From Flavobacteriales bacterium (GTDB taxonomy: Bacteria > Bacteroidota > Bacteroidia > Flavobacteriales_F > PHOS-HE28), in contig JAGPDT010000024.1 in NCBI GenBank assembly GCA_018057455.1, forward strand, positions 1 through 45,195: a DNA stretch of 45,195 bases. The letters run 5' to 3'. Position 1 is the first letter of the stretch. Every line of letters starts with the position of its first letter. The position numbers were made by a program, and so were the translations under genes. Below are positions 3,863 to 42,950 of the stretch, one piece after another. A model generated the notes under the pieces. That model saw nothing but the letters and a program-made list of their open reading frames with translations. It ran no database searches and was not told where the DNA came from.

Positions 3863-3988
<126 letters not shown>

Positions 3989-4148
3989 TGCATAGGGGTT
4001 TGAGATGCACAATATAAGGCAACCAGGAGCGGGTCGTACCGGTGTGGTTCGGGCCATTGATGGCCTGCGACACAGGTCCGCCACTTTGAAATACGGCGGC
4101 AAGTACGCTTGGGTTGGGTGGGTCAGGCACCGGAAGGCCCTCTGCGGA

Positions 4149-7145
4149 TCACTCCCCCTGTTCTTCCGGCAGCACGGGCAGCACGGGCCTGGGTGCGCTG
4201 CGCTCCACCACGCGCTGCACCTCGGTGCGTATGTTCATTTGCTGCAGGCGCTTGTTGGCGGCATCGGGATAGACGCGATTGCTGAGGAAGACGTAGACGG
4301 TGCCATTGTCCGGATCGGCCCAGACCATGGTGCCGGTAAAGCCGGTATGCCCGAAGCTGGCGGCGCTGGCCTCATCGCAACTGGGCCCGGGCGTGCCGGG
4401 GGCCTGCGGCTTGTCCCAGCCCAGGCCGCGGCGGTTGTCCTTTTTCGGATGGCCGGTGCAATAGCGGCAGGCGGTGAAGAGCGCAATGGTGGATGCCTTC
4501 AAATAACGCCTGCCTCCGTAGGTTCCTCCGTTGAGGAGCATCTGCATGAGGATGGCCAGGTCGTTGGCGTTGGAGAACAGGCCCGCATGGCCGGCCACCC
4601 CGCCCATCATGGCCGCTCCGGGGTCGTGCACATGGCCGCGGACAAGCCCGTGCCGGAAGAGGGTATCGTTCTCCGTGGGCATGATGCGGCCCATGGGGAA
4701 TCTGTCCAAGGGGTTGAAGCCCATGGTGGCCAGGCCCAGGGGTGCATAGAACTCGTTTTCCAGGAAGGCCTCGAAAGGTTGGCCCGAGACCCGTTCCACC
4801 ACCTGCCGCAGCAGGTACATGCCCATGTCGCTGTACACGTATTCGCCGCGCTCGCCCAAGGGTGTCTCCAACACCCATTTCACCACGGAATCGCGGTAGC
4901 TGTGGTGGATGAAGAGGCCATCGGCCACCTGCAGATCGTGCTGTTCATCGGGCACGGTGGCCATCACCCCGGGTTCCCATTGGCCCTTGACCTGCAGGCG
5001 CCGGTAGAAGGGCACGAAGGCCTTCAGGCCGCTCTGGTGAGCCAGGATCTCGCTGAGCGAAAGGGCCGCGTGCTTGGGGTAGCGGGCCTGCAGTTCCGGC
5101 AGGTAGGTGCCCAAGGTCTTGTCCACGTCGATGCGTCCGTCATCCACCAATTTCATCAGGGCAAGGGTGGTGGCGGCCACCTTGGTGATGCTGGCCAGGT
5201 CGTAGATGTCCCCGGTGGTCACGGGTGGCTCGCCCACGAAGGTGGGAGCGCCATAGGCCTTGTTCCAGACCACGGTGCCACCGCGCACCACCAGCACTTG
5301 GCAGCCGGGATAGGCTTCGGCCTGCAGGCCCCGGCGCACCAGGGTATCGATGCGCAGGAGGTCCTTGCTCTTCATGGCCTCCTCCTCGGGCAGTCCGTAG
5401 CGCAGGCGGCCGATGGGGGGCACCTGTACGCCCTGCCCTGCCCTGAACCAGGAGGAAGCGGTGACCGGCAGGGTGCCGTTGCCGGGAATGGCGCCGAAGA
5501 GCAGTTGCGCGGCCAGGTCCTGCGTGTCGGCATTCTCCTCGTAGGCCACCACCACGGACTTCCAGCGCTGTGCGCCGTAGGCCGTGCCCAAACGGTAGGG
5601 ATTGGCGAAGAGCACGAACACCATGGGCTGCTGGTCGGCCAGGCGGCGCAGGAAGTCCAAGGTGAGCTGGGGCACGCCGAATTCCTTGTTCACGCGGAAG
5701 GAGGTGTTGTGCACCGAGGTGATCACCAGGTCGAAGTGTTTGAGGCTGTCCAGCAACTGCGTGGACTGCGCGGCGTTGAGCACCTTGTCGCAGCTGAACT
5801 CCGTAATGCGGGCATAACGCCCCAAGGCCTGCTGGAAGGCGTTGTGCACGCTGTCGCCGATCACCAGTGAGGCGATGCGCAGCGTATCCAGCCCCTGGAT
5901 GGGCAGCACACCCTGGTTGGTGGCCACGGTGAGCGACCCCTGCACCAGTTCCCGCTGCAAGGCTTTCCCTTCCGGGGTGTTGAGGTCGTCGTACAGGTTA
6001 TCAAGCCGTAGCGGGCGGAAACGGTCCAGGCCCGCCCATTCCTTGGCCCGCAACACCTTCAGGCATTTGGCGGCGATAAGCTCGCGGCTCACCAGCCCGC
6101 TGTCCACGGCTTGGCGGATGCGCACAATGGCGGCCACGGGATCCTGCGGGAAGAGCAGGACATCATTGCCGGCGAGCAGGGCGCGCAATTCGATCTCGCC
6201 GGGCTTGGCCGCATCGGCGATGCCCTTCATGTTGAGCGCATCGGTGAAGACAAGGCCCTGGAAGCCCATTCGTTCCTGCAGCAGGTCCGTGGTGATGGCC
6301 TTGCTCATGGTGCTGGGCAGCGCGCGGGTGCTGTCCAATGCGGGCACTTCCAGGTGTGCCACCATCAGGGCCGCCACACCGGCGTCGATCAGGCGCTGAA
6401 AGGGCAACAGTTCCACGGAATCCAGCCGTTGGCGCGATACGCTCACCAGGGGCAGGGTCTTGTGGCTGTCCTTGTCGGTATCGCCGTGCCCGGGGAAGTG
6501 CTTGGCCGTGGCGATGACGCCACCGCGCTGGAGGCCGCGCATGTAGGCGATGCCCTTGCGGGCCACCAGTTCCGGCGATTCGCCGAAGCTGCGCTCGTTG
6601 ATCACCGGGTTGGCCGGGTTCACGTTCACGTCCACGTCCGGGCTGAAGCTCACGTGCACGCCCAGGCGCCGCATCTGCCGGGCGATCTCGGCGCCCATGC
6701 GCTCCACGCCCTCGTCATCGGCGATGGCGCCCAAGGCCATTTGGCGGGGAAATTTCAACGTGCTGTCCAAGCGCATGGACAGGCCCCACTCGAGGTCCAT
6801 GCCGATGAGCAGCGGTGTGCGTGCCGCGGTTTGGAAGCGGTTGGTGAGGGTGGCTTGCCGCACGGGGCCGCCCTGGAAGAAGATCAATCCGCCGATGTTG
6901 TACCGGCGCACCAGGTCCTCGATCCCGGCCGCATGCTTTTCATCCTTGTTGCTGTACGCCGCCACCATCATCAACTGCGCGATGCGCTGGTCCAGGTCCA
7001 GCGTGGCCAGCACGGAATCGGCCCAGGGTGATGGTTGAGCAAGAAAATCGGGAAGCGTTCCGGGCGACCGGTGTGCGGGCTTGCCACCGCCCAGCGAGAC
7101 CAGGCCCACCAGCAGCACAGCGGAAAAGAGAAGGGTTCGTTGCAT
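4149..7145 (-). CDS. GH3 beta-N-acetylhexosaminidase-like domain fused to beta-lactamase-family serine hydrolase
   Basis: 998 residues. An N-terminal hydrophobic segment (about 3-22) acts as signal peptide. Residues about 40-380 are a glycoside hydrolase family 3 domain of NagZ type: KHFPGHGDTDKDSH carries the Asp-His acid/base pair and VFTDALNMKG carries the nucleophile Asp. A middle region (about 390-590) resembles the GH3 C-terminal domain. Residues about 600-990 are a class C beta-lactamase/CubicO-like hydrolase with SITK (SxxK, Ser nucleophile), YSD in place of YxN, and GHTG near the end. This two-enzyme fusion is known in Bacteroidota and is thought to act in the periplasm on N-acetylglucosaminyl linkages, probably in peptidoglycan turnover; the natural substrate of the second domain is not known. 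ATG 7145 is chosen because it sits just after a promoter element; a TTG two codons upstream is less likely. Confidence 0.9.
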   Translation of the reverse strand: MQRTLLFSAVLLVGLVSLGGGKPAHRSPGTLPDFLAQPSPWADSVLATLDLDQRIAQLMMVAAYSNKDEKHAAGIEDLVRRYNIGGLIFFQGGPVRQATLTNRFQTAARTPLLIGMDLEWGLSMRLDSTLKFPRQMALGAIADDEGVERMGAEIARQMRRLGVHVSFSPDVDVNVNPANPVINERSFGESPELVARKGIAYMRGLQRGGVIATAKHFPGHGDTDKDSHKTLPLVSVSRQRLDSVELLPFQRLIDAGVAALMVAHLEVPALDSTRALPSTMSKAITTDLLQERMGFQGLVFTDALNMKGIADAAKPGEIELRALLAGNDVLLFPQDPVAAIVRIRQAVDSGLVSRELIAAKCLKVLRAKEWAGLDRFRPLRLDNLYDDLNTPEGKALQRELVQGSLTVATNQGVLPIQGLDTLRIASLVIGDSVHNAFQQALGRYARITEFSCDKVLNAAQSTQLLDSLKHFDLVITSVHNTSFRVNKEFGVPQLTLDFLRRLADQQPMVFVLFANPYRLGTAYGAQRWKSVVVAYEENADTQDLAAQLLFGAIPGNGTLPVTASSWFRAGQGVQVPPIGRLRYGLPEEEAMKSKDLLRIDTLVRRGLQAEAYPGCQVLVVRGGTVVWNKAYGAPTFVGEPPVTTGDIYDLASITKVAATTLALMKLVDDGRIDVDKTLGTYLPELQARYPKHAALSLSEILAHQSGLKAFVPFYRRLQVKGQWEPGVMATVPDEQHDLQVADGLFIHHSYRDSVVKWVLETPLGERGEYVYSDMGMYLLRQVVERVSGQPFEAFLENEFYAPLGLATMGFNPLDRFPMGRIMPTENDTLFRHGLVRGHVHDPGAAMMGGVAGHAGLFSNANDLAILMQMLLNGGTYGGRRYLKASTIALFTACRYCTGHPKKDNRRGLGWDKPQAPGTPGPSCDEASAASFGHTGFTGTMVWADPDNGTVYVFLSNRVYPDAANKRLQQMNIRTEVQRVVERSAPRPVLPVLPEEQGE

Positions 7146-35851: not shown

Positions 35852-37933
35852 TTACGGCAACACCTGGGTGCGTACCGCGGTGGGCGTGCCGCCCAGCACG
35901 GAAATGATCCGGTCGCGGTCATTCCCCGCATTGGTGTACTTGGTGGCACCGTCCAAATTGATATCCTCCCTGGCATAGCCCGGGACCACGGTGGTGGTTG
36001 AGCCCCCCCCGATGCGGAGCAGGACCGCATCGCGGTCATTGGCCGGCCCGGTATAGCTCACCTGTCCATCGCCATTGGCATCACCGGCGCGCAGGCAGCG
36101 TGTGTTGCCCACCTGCACGGTGGCATTGTTTCCACCTTGCAGGGGCATGCTGCCATCGGTGAAGTCCATCGTGGTGGGTATTGCGGTGAGTGATCCGGGG
36201 GTGGCGGTGATGATGCCCAAATGATTGCGATGCCTTACCGCCACGTAGTAGTTGCTGGCGGGCATTCCATGGAACTCCACGGCGCCCACGCCGTCCACGC
36301 CCACCACCTGGCCATCGCTGCGCAACAGGGCCGCGCGGCTGGCGAGCACCAGGGCCGGGTCGTTCTTGTGCCGTAGTTCCACGAGCAACCAGTCCACGAT
36401 CGCCCGGGGCCCGGCCACGGCAAGCACATCCGGATCGGTGGTTTCGCCGCCTCCGTTGCCGGCCATGGCATACCCCAGGCCCGTATAGGGTTCGGCCAGG
36501 GGAAGCAGGCCGGTGCTGCTCAACGATGCGGTCATCAGGCCGGCCGCCTGTACATAGGGGCCTTGCAGCATCACCTTGGGCCTCACCGCCACGAACGGCT
36601 GGGCCCCGTTGGGGTCATATCCGTCCAAGGCCGTGGTGGTGTTGGCGGGGTCCAGCCAATCGCGCAGGCGTGAACCGGCGTTGGTGCCGCCGTTCCAATT
36701 GAAGCTGAACTTGGAGGCGAAGGCGGTGTCGGTGGTGGCCGTGGCACAGGTCATGCCACCGCCCACCATATGGCCCACCAAGCGCTTGTTCTGGTCGAAC
36801 AACGGGGCACCGCTTGCACCCGCTTCCAGGATGCCATTGAACCAGCGGCTCGCCCAACAGGGCACCTCTTCCTCCTCCAAGGCGGCCGAGGTGGCCGGCG
36901 TGTTGTAGAAGCCGATTTTCTTCACGTCCGACAAGGGGTTGAGGATGGCCGCACCGCTTTGTGGCGCATTGCCGCCGCGGTCCCAGCCGGCGTAGTAGGC
37001 GTTGAAGGCAGGGGGCGGCGTGTCGAAAAGCTCCATCAGGCAGAAATCGCCGTGGTAGAGGACCGCCCGCCTGACGCTGCCCGTGAGCGATTGCATGGTC
37101 TGCCCGGTATCAACGGAACAAGTGGGGCTTTGGTAATTGAAGTAGTACACCCATTGGCTTTCGGAAGGCACGTAGCAGTGGTTGGCGATGAGCACGTAGG
37201 GCTTCCCGTCCTGGAGGGTGTTGTTCAGCAGGGTGCCGTTGCAGGTATGGCCCTCCGGCGTCATGAACCAGACTACCGCGCGGCTTTGGTCCTGCCAGTC
37301 GGCGGCCACGGGGCAGGCCACGTTGTTGTGGCAGGGGGAGCTGGGGTAGCCGGGATAGAAGTCACGCTGTGCCGCCTGGGCCGCCGGAAAGATGCTGCGC
37401 CAAGCATGTGTGACGTGCGACACCCGGATGGCCGCGGGTGGGGCACCGGCCGGTTCCTGGTATTCGACGGTGATGGCATCGCCCGGCAGGAAGGCCGTGG
37501 CAAACCGGCCATCCGGCAGCTGATCAGCCTGGGTGAAGGCCCCGAGGAAAGTGGTGCGTGCCGCATTGTAGAGGAACAGGCGCCCGCCCCACGGCAAAGC
37601 GAGTTCGCTGAACTGCATGCTCATCATCATCGCGCCTTCGCTGTGCACGGTGAAACGGCACACCCTGCCCCCACTTGGCAGGTGTGACCAGTGGCCTTCG
37701 GCGATCATGTCCACACCCACGTCCCTGCGTGTGCCGAACCGGTATCCGCGCGGCGCACCGGCGGTGTCCGCCGCCGCTTCGGTGGCGGCTGGGTCCACCG
37801 GCCCCAAGTGCAGATCGGCCACCATGGCGGCCGGATGAGCAGAGGGATCCCAGTTGAGCGGGGTTCCACCAAGGGGAAGTTGAGCGTTCACCTCCACGAC
37901 GGCCAGCAACAACAACGCGGCAATGATCCTCAT
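35852..37933 (-). CDS. Secreted lysyl-endopeptidase-like serine protease with dockerin-like repeat tail
   Basis: 693 residues. The signal peptide MRIIAALLLLAVVEVNA is cleaved before QLPLG. Residues about 60-190 form a beta-rich N-terminal region. Residues about 200-430 resemble Achromobacter protease I/lysyl endopeptidase: CNGTLLNN, the catalytic His in IANHC, Asp in HGDFCLME and Ser in GASGAPLF, plus several Cys. A beta-sandwich-like stretch follows (about 450-610). The end (about 615-693) has two similar 39-residue units, GDANGDGQVSYTGPANDRD and DINLDGATKYTNAGNDRD, each with a calcium-loop-like DxNxDG pattern, ending in TQVLP. There is no ordinary T9SS tag; the repeats may replace it. ATG 37933 is chosen as the signal-peptide start, 47 bp after the upstream gene. 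Confidence 0.85.
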   Translation of the reverse strand: MRIIAALLLLAVVEVNAQLPLGGTPLNWDPSAHPAAMVADLHLGPVDPAATEAAADTAGAPRGYRFGTRRDVGVDMIAEGHWSHLPSGGRVCRFTVHSEGAMMMSMQFSELALPWGGRLFLYNAARTTFLGAFTQADQLPDGRFATAFLPGDAITVEYQEPAGAPPAAIRVSHVTHAWRSIFPAAQAAQRDFYPGYPSSPCHNNVACPVAADWQDQSRAVVWFMTPEGHTCNGTLLNNTLQDGKPYVLIANHCYVPSESQWVYYFNYQSPTCSVDTGQTMQSLTGSVRRAVLYHGDFCLMELFDTPPPAFNAYYAGWDRGGNAPQSGAAILNPLSDVKKIGFYNTPATSAALEEEEVPCWASRWFNGILEAGASGAPLFDQNKRLVGHMVGGGMTCATATTDTAFASKFSFNWNGGTNAGSRLRDWLDPANTTTALDGYDPNGAQPFVAVRPKVMLQGPYVQAAGLMTASLSSTGLLPLAEPYTGLGYAMAGNGGGETTDPDVLAVAGPRAIVDWLLVELRHKNDPALVLASRAALLRSDGQVVGVDGVGAVEFHGMPASNYYVAVRHRNHLGIITATPGSLTAIPTTMDFTDGSMPLQGGNNATVQVGNTRCLRAGDANGDGQVSYTGPANDRDAVLLRIGGGSTTTVVPGYAREDINLDGATKYTNAGNDRDRIISVLGGTPTAVRTQVLP

Positions 37934-37938
37934 CCCGG

Positions 37939-37946
37939 TAAAGTTA
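37939..37946 (-). promoter_or_regulatory. Possible -7 element (TAACTTTA) before the protease gene
   Basis: One mismatch from TAnnTTTG on the minus strand, ending 5 bp before ATG 37933. If used it would give a nearly leaderless mRNA. No -33 TTG is evident. Confidence 0.3.
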
Positions 37947-37980
37947 CGGCTGGCGATCGGTGGACCTTCCGCAGGCGTGC

Positions 37981-40068
37981 TCAATGGGCCGTGATCACAA
38001 AGGTGGTGCGCCGGTTGAGGGCACGGCCGGCCTCGCTGCCGTTGTCGGCCATGGGCACGGTGGGGCCGAACCCCTTGCTGGTGAGCCGCGCCGCGCCGAT
38101 CCCGAGCGTCACCAGGTGTTCCAGCACGTTGGCGGCCCTGTCGCGGCTCAGGGCCATGTTGGCTTCCAAGTCCCCCACATTGTCCGTGTGGCCCTGCAGT
38201 TCGATGCGCACCTTGGGATTATCCATCAAGAAGGTGGCCAACTCGGCCAGGATGAAGCGGCTGGCGCCGGTGATCTCCGCGCTGTTGGTGGCAAAGCGGA
38301 TGTCGTTCACCTTGTAGTTGCGGCCCGTCTCGATTTTTTCCAGCTGCATGTCCACGTGGGCCACGCCTCCCCGCACGGTGTCTTCCAGGCTGAACGAGCG
38401 GCTGTCGAAGACGTGGTCGGGCTTTTTCACGGTGACGATCACGTCGGAGCCCGGTTGCAGGCGCAGTACGGCGGCGTATTTGCCGTCGTTGGGGTCCACA
38501 TTGAGCATTTCGGTCTTGCGGGTGTCCATGTAGGTAATGGAGACCGTGGCATCCTTCACGGCCTTGCCCAACTCATCCTTCACTTCGCCTTTCACGATCG
38601 TGATTTCCTGGGGGCGGGCCTCTTTGGGCAGATCGAACCCGTAGATGTCCAACCCGCCGGGCCCTTTGAAGCGGCTGCTTGCGAAATAGGCGGTCCGTCC
38701 ATCGGCACTGACGATCAAGCCGTGCTCATCCTGCGGGGTGTTGATGGGATTGCCCAGGTTCTTGGGCGTTGTCCAGCCTTCGTTTTCCGCCAGGCGGCTG
38801 TAGAAGATGTCATAGCCCCCGATGCCGCGGTGGCCGGTGCCCAGCTGTTCGTTGCCGTGTTCATCGCGCGGGGGCCGCGCGGCGAAGTAGAGCGTTCGGC
38901 TGTCGCTGTGCATGAAGGGTGCCTTTTCATCACCTGCCGTATTGATGGGCGCGGGCAAGGGTTGGGCCGGGGCCCATTCGCCCTTTTCGTTGCGCTCGCT
39001 GGAGTAGATGTCCGTGCCTTGGCTGTTGCGCCGCAGGGTGGCGAAGAACAAGGTCCTGCCATCCGAGCTGAGCGAAGGTTGGCTCTCCCAACCATCCTCG
39101 GTGTTGATGGCCGGCCCCAGGTTGTTGAGTTCGCTCCAGGTGAAGGTCTGCTTGCCCGAGCTGAAATCCACATGGGTGGTGTAGTGCGTGCTGTAGATAT
39201 CGCAGTTCTTGTAGCCGGCGTCCACGGGCCTGCACACGGTGACAAAGAGTTCCTTGTTGTTGAGGCTGACGGTGACGCCGCCGTAGCTGTCGCCCGTGTT
39301 GAAGGGCGGCGGCAACGGGTGGCCTCCGCCGAAATCGGCCTGCACGGATGCGCGCCTGGCCTCCGTAAGTTCCTCCACGTCGCGGGGGAACCGGTCGCCG
39401 AGCGCTTGGCGTTTGCTCATGCGGGTGAAGAAAAGGAGCTCATTGTCCGGCGAGAACATGGGCAGGTATTCATCGGCAGGGGTATCCACGCCATGGAGCG
39501 GAGTGGGTGCCATGGGCGCTTTGTCGCGGTAGAAATCGCGATAAAACGCCAGCTCGGGCAGGATGCGTTCCACCTCGCCCATCATGCGGCCGTGCTCGTC
39601 GGCGGCATCGCCCCCGGCCGTTTGCGGCAGGTCCTGGAAGTGCTGGAAGGCCTGTGCGGCCCCGGCATACTGCTCCTGGGCATAGTAGATGGAACCGAGG
39701 TAGTAGTACAGCTCCGTGCGCTGTTGCGGGCAGGTCTGCTGGTACTGCTCAAGGTATTGCAGGCCGGCGGCAAAGCTGCCCGCCCCGGACCTGGCCCGCA
39801 GAAAGGCGCTTTCCCCGGTGCGGAAGAGGCATTCGGCGCAGTCGGGCTGCTCATCCAACAGGGCCTTCAGTTTCTGGTGGCGCTCGGTGGGGTTACGGGC
39901 GTCCATGGCCTCTTCCAGGCGTTTGCCCACCTTCTTGTCGGCCGGTGGTCCGCAGGGATCGCCTTCCCTATCCTGCCCGGATGCCGCCGTGCCCAGCACG
40001 CTCAATAGCAACAGGCAGGCGGTTTTCAGCAAGCCCGGTAGGGCCAACCTGCTCTCCTCACGTTCCAT
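37981..40068 (-). CDS. PorE-like outer-envelope protein: TPR, PD40 propeller, regulatory-like fold and OmpA domain
   Basis: 695 residues from ATG 40068 (MEREESRLALPGLL then a hydrophobic core ending TAASGQ). TPR-like helices lie at about 30-130, PD40/WD40-like propeller units at about 150-430 (PMFSPDNELLFF, PSLSSDGRTLFFAT, PFMHSDSRTLYFAA, LIVSADGRTAYFAS), a carboxypeptidase-regulatory-like domain at about 440-535, and an OmpA C-terminal peptidoglycan-binding domain at about 545-690 (IELQGHTDNVGD, LSRDRAANV, NRRTTF). This order is that of P. gingivalis PorE, a T9SS component that binds peptidoglycan, but also of other Bacteroidota OmpA proteins. GTG 40113, overlapping the asmA-like stop, and ATG 40101 are alternative starts with long N-terminal extensions. 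No clear lipobox. Confidence 0.88.
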   Translation of the reverse strand: MEREESRLALPGLLKTACLLLLSVLGTAASGQDREGDPCGPPADKKVGKRLEEAMDARNPTERHQKLKALLDEQPDCAECLFRTGESAFLRARSGAGSFAAGLQYLEQYQQTCPQQRTELYYYLGSIYYAQEQYAGAAQAFQHFQDLPQTAGGDAADEHGRMMGEVERILPELAFYRDFYRDKAPMAPTPLHGVDTPADEYLPMFSPDNELLFFTRMSKRQALGDRFPRDVEELTEARRASVQADFGGGHPLPPPFNTGDSYGGVTVSLNNKELFVTVCRPVDAGYKNCDIYSTHYTTHVDFSSGKQTFTWSELNNLGPAINTEDGWESQPSLSSDGRTLFFATLRRNSQGTDIYSSERNEKGEWAPAQPLPAPINTAGDEKAPFMHSDSRTLYFAARPPRDEHGNEQLGTGHRGIGGYDIFYSRLAENEGWTTPKNLGNPINTPQDEHGLIVSADGRTAYFASSRFKGPGGLDIYGFDLPKEARPQEITIVKGEVKDELGKAVKDATVSITYMDTRKTEMLNVDPNDGKYAAVLRLQPGSDVIVTVKKPDHVFDSRSFSLEDTVRGGVAHVDMQLEKIETGRNYKVNDIRFATNSAEITGASRFILAELATFLMDNPKVRIELQGHTDNVGDLEANMALSRDRAANVLEHLVTLGIGAARLTSKGFGPTVPMADNGSEAGRALNRRTTFVITAH

Positions 40069-40109
40069 GGGATCAAACGCCGGGTCCGCGATGCACTTCA
40101 TCGCCCTGT

Positions 40110-42950
40110 TCACTTCACCGTGGTATCCGTGGCCTCCGCTTTGGCAATGAGGGCGTCACCCTGCTTGCGGGCCAGGTCCACCAGCCCATCGGCGCGTTTG
40201 TCCGCCTCCGCAATGAACTGCCTCTCCTTGTCATCGGCGGCCTTTTTCGCCTTGTCGGCCGCCACCTTGGCCGCGGCTTTGGCCAAGGGGTTGTTGGCCT
40301 GGTTGACCAGGTCGTCCGCGGCCTTGTACCCTTGGGCCTTCACGTTGGCCGCCTCGCTGCGCGCCCTGGCCTTGATGTCGTTGGCCTGTTTCTGGGCCTC
40401 GGCCAACAGGCGAGCGGCTTCTTCGCGGGCCTTGGCGATGGCTTCCTCCTTGGCTTTGCCGATCTGCTGGTTGACCTGTTCCTTCACTTCTTCCTTGATG
40501 GTCTCCTTCACGTTCCCGCCCCCGGCGAACACCGGTTTCACCACGGGCTTTTCCACGGTGCCGGTGATCTTGGCGGTGAGGTCCAATTCCTTGGGCAATT
40601 GGGTATCGGTGCCCAAGGTGCGGTTGATCTGGCCCAGGAGACCGCCCACCAGCTGGCCGGCATCAGCGCCGAACATGTCCGTGGGCACCTTGGTCTTGAG
40701 GGTGTAGTCGATGGCATGGTCCGCAAAGGCCGTACTGCCGGCCACATGGGCCGTGAGGCGATCGATCTTCACCTGGAACGGCTTGGTGATCATCTTGCCG
40801 TCCTGGATGTCGTAGCTGAAGTCCATGTCCTGGACGTTCGCCGTGGCCAGTTGGGGCATTTTCAGCACGTTGGCCGCTTCCTGCAGGGGCTTGAAGCCCG
40901 ACAAGGCGATGTTCTTGGTCTTGAGCACACCCTGGCCCGCCAGGCTGGCCATCACCGGCGCCATCTGCGGGTCCAGCGTTCCGGCCAAGGCCAAGGTGGT
41001 GGTTACGCGCCCTGTGCAATACTTGGCCACCGGGGCCATCTCCTGCACCATTTCCACGTTGTCCACCAACTTCTTGATGTCGACGTCGCTCACCTTGAGG
41101 TCCATGTTGAACTTGGGGGCCGCCTGGTCCCGGGTGTCGTAAGAGCCGTCCATGCCCATTCGGCCGTCGAAGATGTTGAAGCCCATGCCACGGAGGTCCA
41201 CACGCTGGTCGTGCACGTGCAGTTTGCCGGCGGCGTTGGCCAGGACGAGGTTTTCATACAGCACTTCCTTCACGGCGGCGGTGAGGGTGAAGTCGATGTT
41301 CCGCGGCACTTCGATGATACCTGCCGCGGCGCTATCGGTGGTGGCCGCGGCGGCGGTGGAGCCCGCATCGGCCGGGCCCATCAGTTCGTTGAGGTCGAAC
41401 CGGTTGCTTTTCACATCGAAGGCCCCGGTGAGGGTGCTGTCCTTGAGCCACCATTGCAGGTAGTTGTCCATGCGTCCGCTGGCCTGCACGTCGCTCTTGC
41501 CCACGCTGCCGGTGAAGTTGGTGAGTGCCAGGAATCGCGGGCTGAAGTCGAAGATGAGCGAGCGGATGTCCACCGGGTACGGCAGGGAATCGCTACGGTA
41601 GTTCATGCCGCTGAGCGCGAGCTGGCCTTCGGCCTTGAATTGCTCGAAGCGTTGGGCTTCCACATCGCTCATGCGGCCGGCCATGCGCACATCGGCCACC
41701 ACCTTGCCGGTGAGGGCATCCCCCTTGGTCATGGGCACCACCTTGTTCACGTTGGCCAGGTCGATGTCGGCTTTCAGGGCCGCATCCACGTTGGGATCGC
41801 TGATGGGCGTGGAGAGGTGCATGCGTGCTTCCACGGGGTTGCCCGCGAGCTTCAGGGCGAACCGTTTGAGGTCCACTACCATGCCGTCCAGGTCCTTGCC
41901 TTGCGGACTTTGGATGATGCAATCCACGAAGATGGCCTCCATGCTGGCGGGCAGGTCGGGGTATTTGAAGCGGCCGTTGTCCACGTTGATGTTCACGCCG
42001 AAGCCCGGCGAGGTCTGTTCATTGTAGGTGCCTTTCACGTAGCCCGAGAAGGCGGCCTTACCGGAGAGGTCCACACCCTTGAGGTCGGAGGCAAATTCCG
42101 CAGGTACCAATGAGAGCAGCGTACCGATGTCGCTCTTCTTCATGTTCCAGGTGAGGTCCATGTCGATGTCGTCCGCAGGCATGGCCAACCATCCGTCCAG
42201 GCCGAGCTCGAGTTGGTTCACCAGGATGTTGTTGTCCTTGAAGGTGAATTTCATGTGGGGCAGGTCCATGTCGATGTCGGCCTGCAGGTTGGCCTTGGCG
42301 TTGCGCAGGTATTTCACGCCATCGTAGGCCACGGTGGTCCGTTCCACGGTGGTGTTGGTGCTGAGGGTGAAGAGGTCCTGGGTGAAGTCGCCCTTGCCGG
42401 TGTGCTCCACGTCCTGGAGGTCCATCATTATCGGCAGGCTCTCGTCATCGTACATAATGTGCCCCTTGGTGATGCTGTACTGCTTGAGGGCCACGTTGAA
42501 CCGTGTGGTGGCGGTGTCCTCGGGCAACTCGGCCGTGGTGCTGTCGGGCATGGCGATGTCCCAGTTGGCGCGGCCGTCCTGGAGCACCTTGATGTGGATG
42601 ACCGGTTCCACCAAAGCCACCTCCCTGATCTTGATCTGGTCGCTGAAGAGGCTCATGGTGGCGATGGTGGCGCGGACCTCACCGAGGTCGGCCAGGCAAA
42701 CCCCTTCGAAGGGCGCCTTGTTGCACACCTTCACATTCTTCACTTCCACGCTGGCATTGGGAAAGCTGCGCAACAGGCTAATGTCCCAATCGCCCCAATC
42801 CACCGTGGCGTTGATGCTCTTGTTCACCTGTTCCTTCACGGCCGCCTCGATCTTGTCCTTGTACAGCACCGGGATGAGCACGGCGGCCACCAGCAGCAAT
42901 ACGATAAGGATACCGAACACGAGCAGGATACGCTTGGTCCACTTGGCCAT
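40110..42950 (-). CDS. AsmA-family protein
   Basis: 946 residues. One N-terminal transmembrane helix (about 8-30) anchors a very long periplasmic region. The start WTKRILLVFGILIVLLL with 'KDKIEAAVKEQVNKSINATVDWG' (read in parts, about 32-54) and repeated beta-strand units are typical of AsmA/TamB-like bridge proteins; the AsmA C-terminal-like domain is at about 600-800. The last 125 residues are an Ala-, Lys- and Glu-rich coiled coil. AsmA-like proteins are thought to move phospholipids between inner and outer membrane. The stop overlaps the possible GTG start of the OmpA-domain gene downstream, so both are probably on one transcript for outer-membrane upkeep. Confidence 0.9.
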   Translation of the reverse strand: MAKWTKRILLVFGILIVLLLVAAVLIPVLYKDKIEAAVKEQVNKSINATVDWGDWDISLLRSFPNASVEVKNVKVCNKAPFEGVCLADLGEVRATIATMSLFSDQIKIREVALVEPVIHIKVLQDGRANWDIAMPDSTTAELPEDTATTRFNVALKQYSITKGHIMYDDESLPIMMDLQDVEHTGKGDFTQDLFTLSTNTTVERTTVAYDGVKYLRNAKANLQADIDMDLPHMKFTFKDNNILVNQLELGLDGWLAMPADDIDMDLTWNMKKSDIGTLLSLVPAEFASDLKGVDLSGKAAFSGYVKGTYNEQTSPGFGVNINVDNGRFKYPDLPASMEAIFVDCIIQSPQGKDLDGMVVDLKRFALKLAGNPVEARMHLSTPISDPNVDAALKADIDLANVNKVVPMTKGDALTGKVVADVRMAGRMSDVEAQRFEQFKAEGQLALSGMNYRSDSLPYPVDIRSLIFDFSPRFLALTNFTGSVGKSDVQASGRMDNYLQWWLKDSTLTGAFDVKSNRFDLNELMGPADAGSTAAAATTDSAAAGIIEVPRNIDFTLTAAVKEVLYENLVLANAAGKLHVHDQRVDLRGMGFNIFDGRMGMDGSYDTRDQAAPKFNMDLKVSDVDIKKLVDNVEMVQEMAPVAKYCTGRVTTTLALAGTLDPQMAPVMASLAGQGVLKTKNIALSGFKPLQEAANVLKMPQLATANVQDMDFSYDIQDGKMITKPFQVKIDRLTAHVAGSTAFADHAIDYTLKTKVPTDMFGADAGQLVGGLLGQINRTLGTDTQLPKELDLTAKITGTVEKPVVKPVFAGGGNVKETIKEEVKEQVNQQIGKAKEEAIAKAREEAARLLAEAQKQANDIKARARSEAANVKAQGYKAADDLVNQANNPLAKAAAKVAADKAKKAADDKERQFIAEADKRADGLVDLARKQGDALIAKAEATDTTVK

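Follow-up and report, generated by a model that had tools for sequence, protein, structure and literature searches.

The stretch of DNA analysed here, hereafter the window, comprises 45,195 nucleotides of contig JAGPDT010000024.1 from a Flavobacteriales bacterium. Its minus strand carries a gene for a secreted, protease-like protein that ends in the module described below (Table 1). The listed reading frame (35852-37984, minus strand) encodes 710 amino acids from a TTG start. The ATG given in Table 1 is the more likely start, because a signal peptide begins there when the translation is read directly. The predicted 693-residue protein then starts with MRIIAALLLLAVVEVNA, followed by the Q before which it would be cleaved. 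Cleavage before Gln is the usual pattern in Bacteroidetes, known as the Q-rule, according to PMC5837995, and the signal peptide in the window fits it.

A prior description of the sequence had called the protein lysyl-endopeptidase-like and had stated that it lacks a T9SS type A tag. The trypsin-like character is suggested by the protein's sole Pfam match, a sub-threshold one to Trypsin_2, while the name 'lysyl-endopeptidase' itself was given by eye. No NCBIfam model matches the protein at E <= 1, so neither a type A tag nor one of type B or C is recognised. Elsewhere in the window (about 3863-4057, minus strand), a short frame of low complexity contains a run of Ser-Leu dipeptides (SLSLSLSLSL...), which may be a simple repeat.

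Table 1. Features at the locus, in window coordinates.
Feature	Position	Strand	Basis or remark
PD40-OmpA gene, directly upstream of the protease	37981-40113	minus	same strand as the protease gene
Gene for the module-bearing secreted protein	35852..37933	minus	693 aa from ATG 37933-37931
Signal peptide MRIIAALLLLAVVEVNA, cleaved before Q	37883..37933	minus	read from translation
Trypsin-like protease region	36773..37198	minus	sub-threshold Trypsin_2, E 0.0029, residues 263-404
C-terminal X-module-dockerin-like module, 246 aa	35855..36592	minus	alignments, AlphaFold2 model, fold matches
X-module-like beta-sandwich part	36086..36592	minus	conserved IVDWxLVELR and RHRNHLG; conservation and model secondary structure
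Both NDRD units	35855-36082	minus	last third of module
Dockerin-like unit 1	35966..36082	minus	DANGDG...NDRD, helix from module residue 186
NDRD, unit 1	36029..36040	minus	N, D and R each in 85/85 aligned sequences
Dockerin-like unit 2	35855..35965	minus	DINLDG...NDRD, helix from module residue 225
NDRD, unit 2	35912..35923	minus	N, D and R each in 85/85 aligned sequences
Terminal TQVLP	35855..35869	minus	Pro in 85/85 at this column

A conserved C-terminal module

The sequence-only reading had drawn attention to the last 79 or so residues of the protein, which it described as two units of 39 residues each. Two units are present, but they are 39 and 37 residues long and together span 76: residues 635-710 of the listed frame run from DANGDG...ARE in the first unit to DINLDG...VLP in the second. 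The translation bears out the DxNxDG loop and the NDRD element in both units, as well as the TQVLP ending. The two units are identical at 13 of 37 ungapped positions, a value reached by 3 of 100,000 shuffles of unit 2.

The tail is real, but it makes up no more than the final third of a longer conserved unit, about 246 residues in length. Searching the same genome with the tail recovered three further proteins with a clear copy, each at the exact C-terminus; two additional matches were weak (E 0.35 and 0.58) and were left out. All four copies align over about 245 residues, through EPY, IVDWxLVELR and the RHRNHLG part, and then the two units.

An alignment of 85 modules was assembled from the window copy and 84 others taken from the collected loci, all matching over their full length, lying at the C-terminus and sharing no more than 85% mutual identity. 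In both units, the NDR triplet is invariant across this alignment. Among the calcium-loop positions, just one matches NDR in strictness, namely the initial Asp of unit 2; the first loop position of unit 1 holds Asn in 48 of the 85 sequences and Asp in 36. The NDR extension is therefore more strictly conserved than most of the loop residues. The commonest endings in the family are EQLP (48/85) and QQLP (21/85).

Predicted fold and relationship to dockerins

AlphaFold2, supplied with the 85-sequence alignment, modelled the window module with a mean pLDDT of 97.4 and a pTM of 0.93. In the predicted structure, an Ig-like X-module and the two loop-helix units behind it form a single fold, and the helices of both units begin at NDR. 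The top five Foldseek matches in the PDB are X-module-dockerin (XDoc) chains, with a best E of 3.5e-3 and none at 1e-3 or better. Eight XDoc entries also lead the VIA-align list, at Z 8.5-9.8 over 142-148 residues and 3.7-4.1 A, ahead of a next entry at Z 4.8; these values are to be read against a best Z of 7-8 that is typical of models lacking a clear match. The sandwich also overlaps the type A domain of a T9SS protein, mirolase (8qb1, Z 3.7). This overlap was disregarded, because Ig-like sandwiches score such Z values widely in that list.

A relationship is also detectable between sequences when the wider family is considered. A profile built from 33 diverse members matches PDB chains 2b59_B (the XDoc of CipA) at E 2.1e-4 and 3kcp at E 8.8e-4. 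Of the 26 chains matched at E 10 or better, 22 are cellulosome-type by name, the remaining four being calmodulin and three erythrocyte membrane proteins. The profile of the window subtype (NDRD) alone matched no PDB dockerins, and the window module itself has no match to Pfam Dockerin_1. Nine of the 33 diverse members match Dockerin_1 at E <= 0.1, the best at 6.6e-4. Three members match Pro_racemase, the best (2.7e-4) being slightly better than that for Dockerin_1; we take this relation to be due to chance, and in one locus (L034) the match sits on the sandwich half.

Many other Bacteroidota have this first part of the module in front of an ordinary dockerin pair with short loops. The resemblance to dockerins that had been noted by eye is real, and it extends to the whole X-module-dockerin fold, a relation that is well supported at the level of the predicted model. 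Together, the model fold, the wider-family matches and the short-loop relatives make it most likely that the window module is a derived X-module-dockerin with extended loops. According to PMC5141474, the X-module packs on the dockerin loops and in CipB stabilises both calcium loops, cohesin recognition occurs at loop positions 11-12, and one calcium loop of an A. cellulolyticus dockerin has a four-residue insertion. Judging by the aligned sequences and by where the helices start, the NDR triplets would lie at about the same place as loop positions 11-12 or this insertion.

Distribution, position and passengers

Within the window's genus, the module occurs in every one of the 31 genomes sampled, at 4-46 copies each. 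The same genomes have from 108 to at least 131 type A matches and 31-62 type B matches. Among 395 sampled Bacteroidota genomes, the wider-family profile detected the module in 53 and the narrow profile in 50. All titles are Bacteroidota for the 78 loci that were drawn from the best 80 of at least 573 relatives, and a plasmid search with the window module returned no matches.

The collected loci hold 178 distinct module-bearing frames, a set biased to near relatives and protease homologues, and 174 of these frames are complete. The module is C-terminal with rare exceptions: 159 of the 174 end within 3 residues of it and 170 within 20. Further residues after the profile match number 27, 31 and 55 in L221, L026 and L009, respectively. 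A Pro occurs within the last four residues of 163 of the 174. The single clear non-terminal carrier is L056, where the module directly follows the signal peptide and 212 residues lie behind it. In this frame (4908-6371, plus strand), the 212-residue domain that trails the module is one we take to be FISUMP-like. The module also co-occurs with signal peptides: 78 of 87 complete module frames have a signal-like start under a home-made rule, compared with 97 of 229 neighbouring frames.

The proteins to which the module is attached are diverse, with 196 passengers falling into 52 clusters, and each of 136 frames has one module match (136/136). Pfam matches on 30 chosen carriers include PKD, kelch, FG-GAP, reprolysin/metallo-peptidase, MAM and lysyl oxidase, among others. 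NCBIfam adds three 'choice-of-anchor' families, with one carrier each; such families differ in their C-terminal anchor. At the other extreme are two carriers of 297 residues that amount to barely more than a signal peptide and the module (L015, 1246-2136, plus strand; L016, 1459-2349, minus strand). These are hard to square with the role of a pure tag. In several distant Bacteroidota genomes, the module occurs in just one frame, about 700 residues long. Three of these frames, L031 (1459-3636, minus strand), L032 and L035 (1450-3603, minus strand), have nothing in Pfam at E <= 0.01. The single carriers in these distant genomes are possibly one conserved surface protein.

Exchange with the type A tag

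Homologues of the protease domain were drawn from 45 genomes, among the matches listed, in 30 loci and 40 further regions. The window protease has 83 complete distinct homologues: 36 of them carry the module at their end, and the other 47 lack it. At E <= 0.01, 46 of these 47 match the type A model TIGR04183, some of them below its 23-bit cut-off (for example, at 16.4 bits), and one is uncalled. Searching the module-bearing frames with a home-made profile recovered no type A end. A quick maximum-likelihood tree of 82 passengers, in which every row without the module was labelled 'A', requires a minimum of three tail switches, two of them forced by starred branches. Among proteins that differ in their tails, many pairs can be aligned over 638-683 residues, at 42-53% identity. 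The module exchanges with the type A tag on homologous passengers, and the two are mutually exclusive.

Another passenger, a C25-like protein, offers thin support as a second case. It is represented by 30 frames, six of them complete: four end in the module, one in a type A tag (20.1 bits, below the cut-off) and one in neither (L238, the end of which appears to be out of frame). The passengers of carriers outside L126-L195 have 61 non-module homologues, which are largely the same protease paralogues. Among 40 of the 61, the home-made profile recognises a type A end in 39; the remaining one, a delta-60-like frame (L075) that is apparently broken, has neither tail.

A proposed role in protein sorting

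We propose that the derived X-module-dockerin fills the C-terminal T9SS type A slot, and that one common partner reads it via the duplicated NDR face; we consider this reading slightly more probable than not. Since the module replaces the type A tag and keeps NDR in both halves of all 85 aligned copies, a common reader is the simplest account, and since the module occupies the place of the tag, we locate this reader where the type A tag is normally read. The protein would leave the cytoplasm through Sec by means of its signal peptide. A periplasmic or outer-membrane partner, common to all carriers, would then bind the module by its duplicated helix-start face, with the Asn-Asp-Arg that is invariant in both units forming the partner-facing surface. 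The beta-sandwich half would keep both loops in place, much as the X-module does in cellulosomes. Reading by the partner would commit the protein to passage across the outer membrane by the T9SS, to retention at the surface, or to both.

A more specific version is that an X-module-dockerin has given rise to a further class of T9SS signal. Its dockerin face, fixed in the double Asn-Asp-Arg signature, would have given up cohesin for a T9SS component in the outer membrane, perhaps of the PorV or PorE type, and would bring up to 46 different proteins per genome to the surface. We advance this version tentatively, at somewhat short of an even chance. Several observations count against the proposal: the non-terminal module of L056, the extra residues in L221, L026 and L009, the 297-residue carriers L015 and L016, the lack of a dockerin match for the window subtype profile, the enrichment of cohesins in module-bearing Bacteroidota, and the presence of cohesin and module together in L034.

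We infer that a sorting or retention role of the module would be tied to the T9SS, whose presence was judged by SprA alone. SprA occurs in all 53 module-bearing genomes and in 251 of the 342 other Bacteroidota genomes (Fisher p 6e-7, ancestry ignored). This association is weak and confounded by ancestry, because 304 of the 395 genomes have SprA and its absence is confined to a few lineages. Fifteen of 20 listed SprA-negative genomes (71 more are unlisted) belong to one family.

The gene directly upstream of the protease might be thought to supply the partner. Of the 29 loci L126-L154, among which is the window's, 28 have PD40-OmpA next to the module-bearing protease, and in the exception (L149) the protease match lies 298 bases from the contig end. 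It is possible that the two genes form an operon and that their products are partners. In P. gingivalis, a type B substrate requires PorE in order to be secreted properly (PMC10202324). The resemblance of the PD40-OmpA protein to the CHU_0125 and PorE models is far below their cut-offs. As a general partner of the module it was set aside and is kept as a lead, for it sits beside the protease orthologues and is irregular near other carriers: the sole other case among L037-L114 is a PD40-OmpA fragment in L044, 2.3 kb from a different carrier. None of the top 12 clusters of open reading frames around the 78 loci is a module-specific partner gene, and these clusters look like passenger-specific synteny only.

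Cohesins and alternative explanations

The main rival to this proposal is ordinary docking, in which the module functions as an X-dockerin and recruits its carriers to a surface scaffold through a cohesin too diverged for Pfam, with export achieved by other means. It draws on the relation to XDocs in both fold and sequence, and on the role of type II XDocs in anchoring complexes at the cell surface in cellulosomes, as described in PMC5141474. The distribution of cohesins also speaks for it. Cohesin is found at E <= 0.001 in 127 of the 395 genomes of the phylum sample, and it is commoner where the module is present: 33 of 53 module-bearing genomes have it, compared with 94 of the 342 that lack the module (odds ratio 4.4, p 2e-6, ancestry ignored). 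One protein contains cohesin and module together. This frame (L034, 1-2082, plus strand) has a cohesin domain and a short-loop module at its end, a scaffoldin-like layout. The enrichment and L034 make ordinary docking plausible in short-loop dockerin lineages. By eye, 4 of 10 extended-loop genomes and 12 of 19 short-loop genomes are cohesin-positive, numbers too few for a conclusion with 24 of the 53 unclassed.

The window's genus tells against docking. The sequence-only reading had set its proposal against a standard dockerin with cohesin partners in the same genome; nine relatives do match Dockerin_1, but the PF00963 cohesin is detected at E <= 0.01 in none of the 31 genomes of the genus, despite their 4-46 modules each, and a more diverged cohesin beyond the reach of Pfam is possible. 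The window's own genome has three weak cohesin matches (L115-L117, E 0.03-0.5), which we rejected by eye: the best lies in an M43/PKD-like protein frame with a type-A-like end, and the others are a repeat protein and a match beside VWA/BatD-like frames. We therefore reject the standard dockerin-cohesin pair for this genus, on the basis of the own genome and the 31 genomes, and retain it as a rival elsewhere. Docking also offers no reason for the absence of the type A tag wherever the module is present. On balance we regard ordinary docking as unlikely to be the general function of the module.

Less likely still is that the module serves as a structural cap. In that case it would bind calcium at the C-terminus and lend stability to secreted or periplasmic proteins, and would take part in neither sorting nor docking. 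The compact, confidently predicted fold, the DxNxDG loops and the carriers with almost no passenger would suit such a cap. The occurrence of one module on so many different passengers, together with NDR triplets that do not vary in either unit, instead indicates a shared partner, and exchange with a sorting tag would be unexpected of a cap. We give very little credence to a surface domain for adhesion or ligand binding, which would attach to polysaccharide or another cell after export: carriers such as those with PKD, kelch, FG-GAP, MAM and metallo-peptidase domains among the 30 chosen do appear extracellular, but the module lies nearly always at the extreme C-terminus with its near-constant Pro, and it occurs singly in each frame, never alongside a type A end.

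If the sorting proposal is true, T9SS predictions based on types A, B and C would overlook a large number of surface proteins in those Flavobacteriales that are known chiefly through metagenomes. It would also mean that a dockerin has been recruited to protein sorting instead of complex assembly. Even if the module performs ordinary docking, 4-46 X-dockerins per genome without a recognisable cohesin would imply a novel receptor.

Comparison with known systems

The suggestion that the C-terminus had gone undescribed holds for the sources covered. Neither Pfam nor NCBIfam has a model for the window copy, and five motif strings were absent from the literature searched. Titles and the starts of abstracts in that literature, whose coverage mostly excludes subscription papers, yielded no description of the module.

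The closest structural counterparts are the cellulosomal X-module-type II dockerins of CipA, ScaA and CipB (2b59, 3kcp, 4u3s, 4wi0, 5m0y and 5g5d). In both systems, a sandwich precedes two loop-helix units, and the whole is placed at the C-terminus of secreted proteins. The window module has DxNxDG loops and is a putative binder of two calcium ions, a trait of X-module-dockerins. The two systems also differ. The sandwich part in the window is about 165 residues, whereas the X-module of CipB is 98, and both loops are extended, with the extension ending in the invariant NDR. The window subtype lacks a sequence match to cellulosomal XDocs, and in the 31 genomes of its genus cohesin was not found. 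Further, the cellulosomal XDoc is carried by a scaffoldin, while the module rides on many different passengers. Other Bacteroidota proteins do end in a short-loop pair recognised by Dockerin_1 (PF00404), as in L019 and L021, a model that the window module does not match.

In its context, the module resembles the T9SS type A tag (TIGR04183 / PF18962). Both are C-terminal, both occur in many copies per genome on Sec-exported proteins of the surface type, and both are found on homologues of the same passengers. The module differs in having no sequence match to the tag, in its length of 246 residues against 72 model positions, and in the dockerin-like pair that it contains. Type B (TIGR04131) and type C (NF033708, ChiA) are likewise C-terminal T9SS signals, and the window protein matches neither. 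For type B, fusions suggest that a region of more than 200 residues is needed, according to PMC10202324. Because a cohesin partner and a match to a tag model are both missing, the module formally belongs to neither class; it is an X-module-dockerin by fold and like a T9SS C-terminal domain by context.
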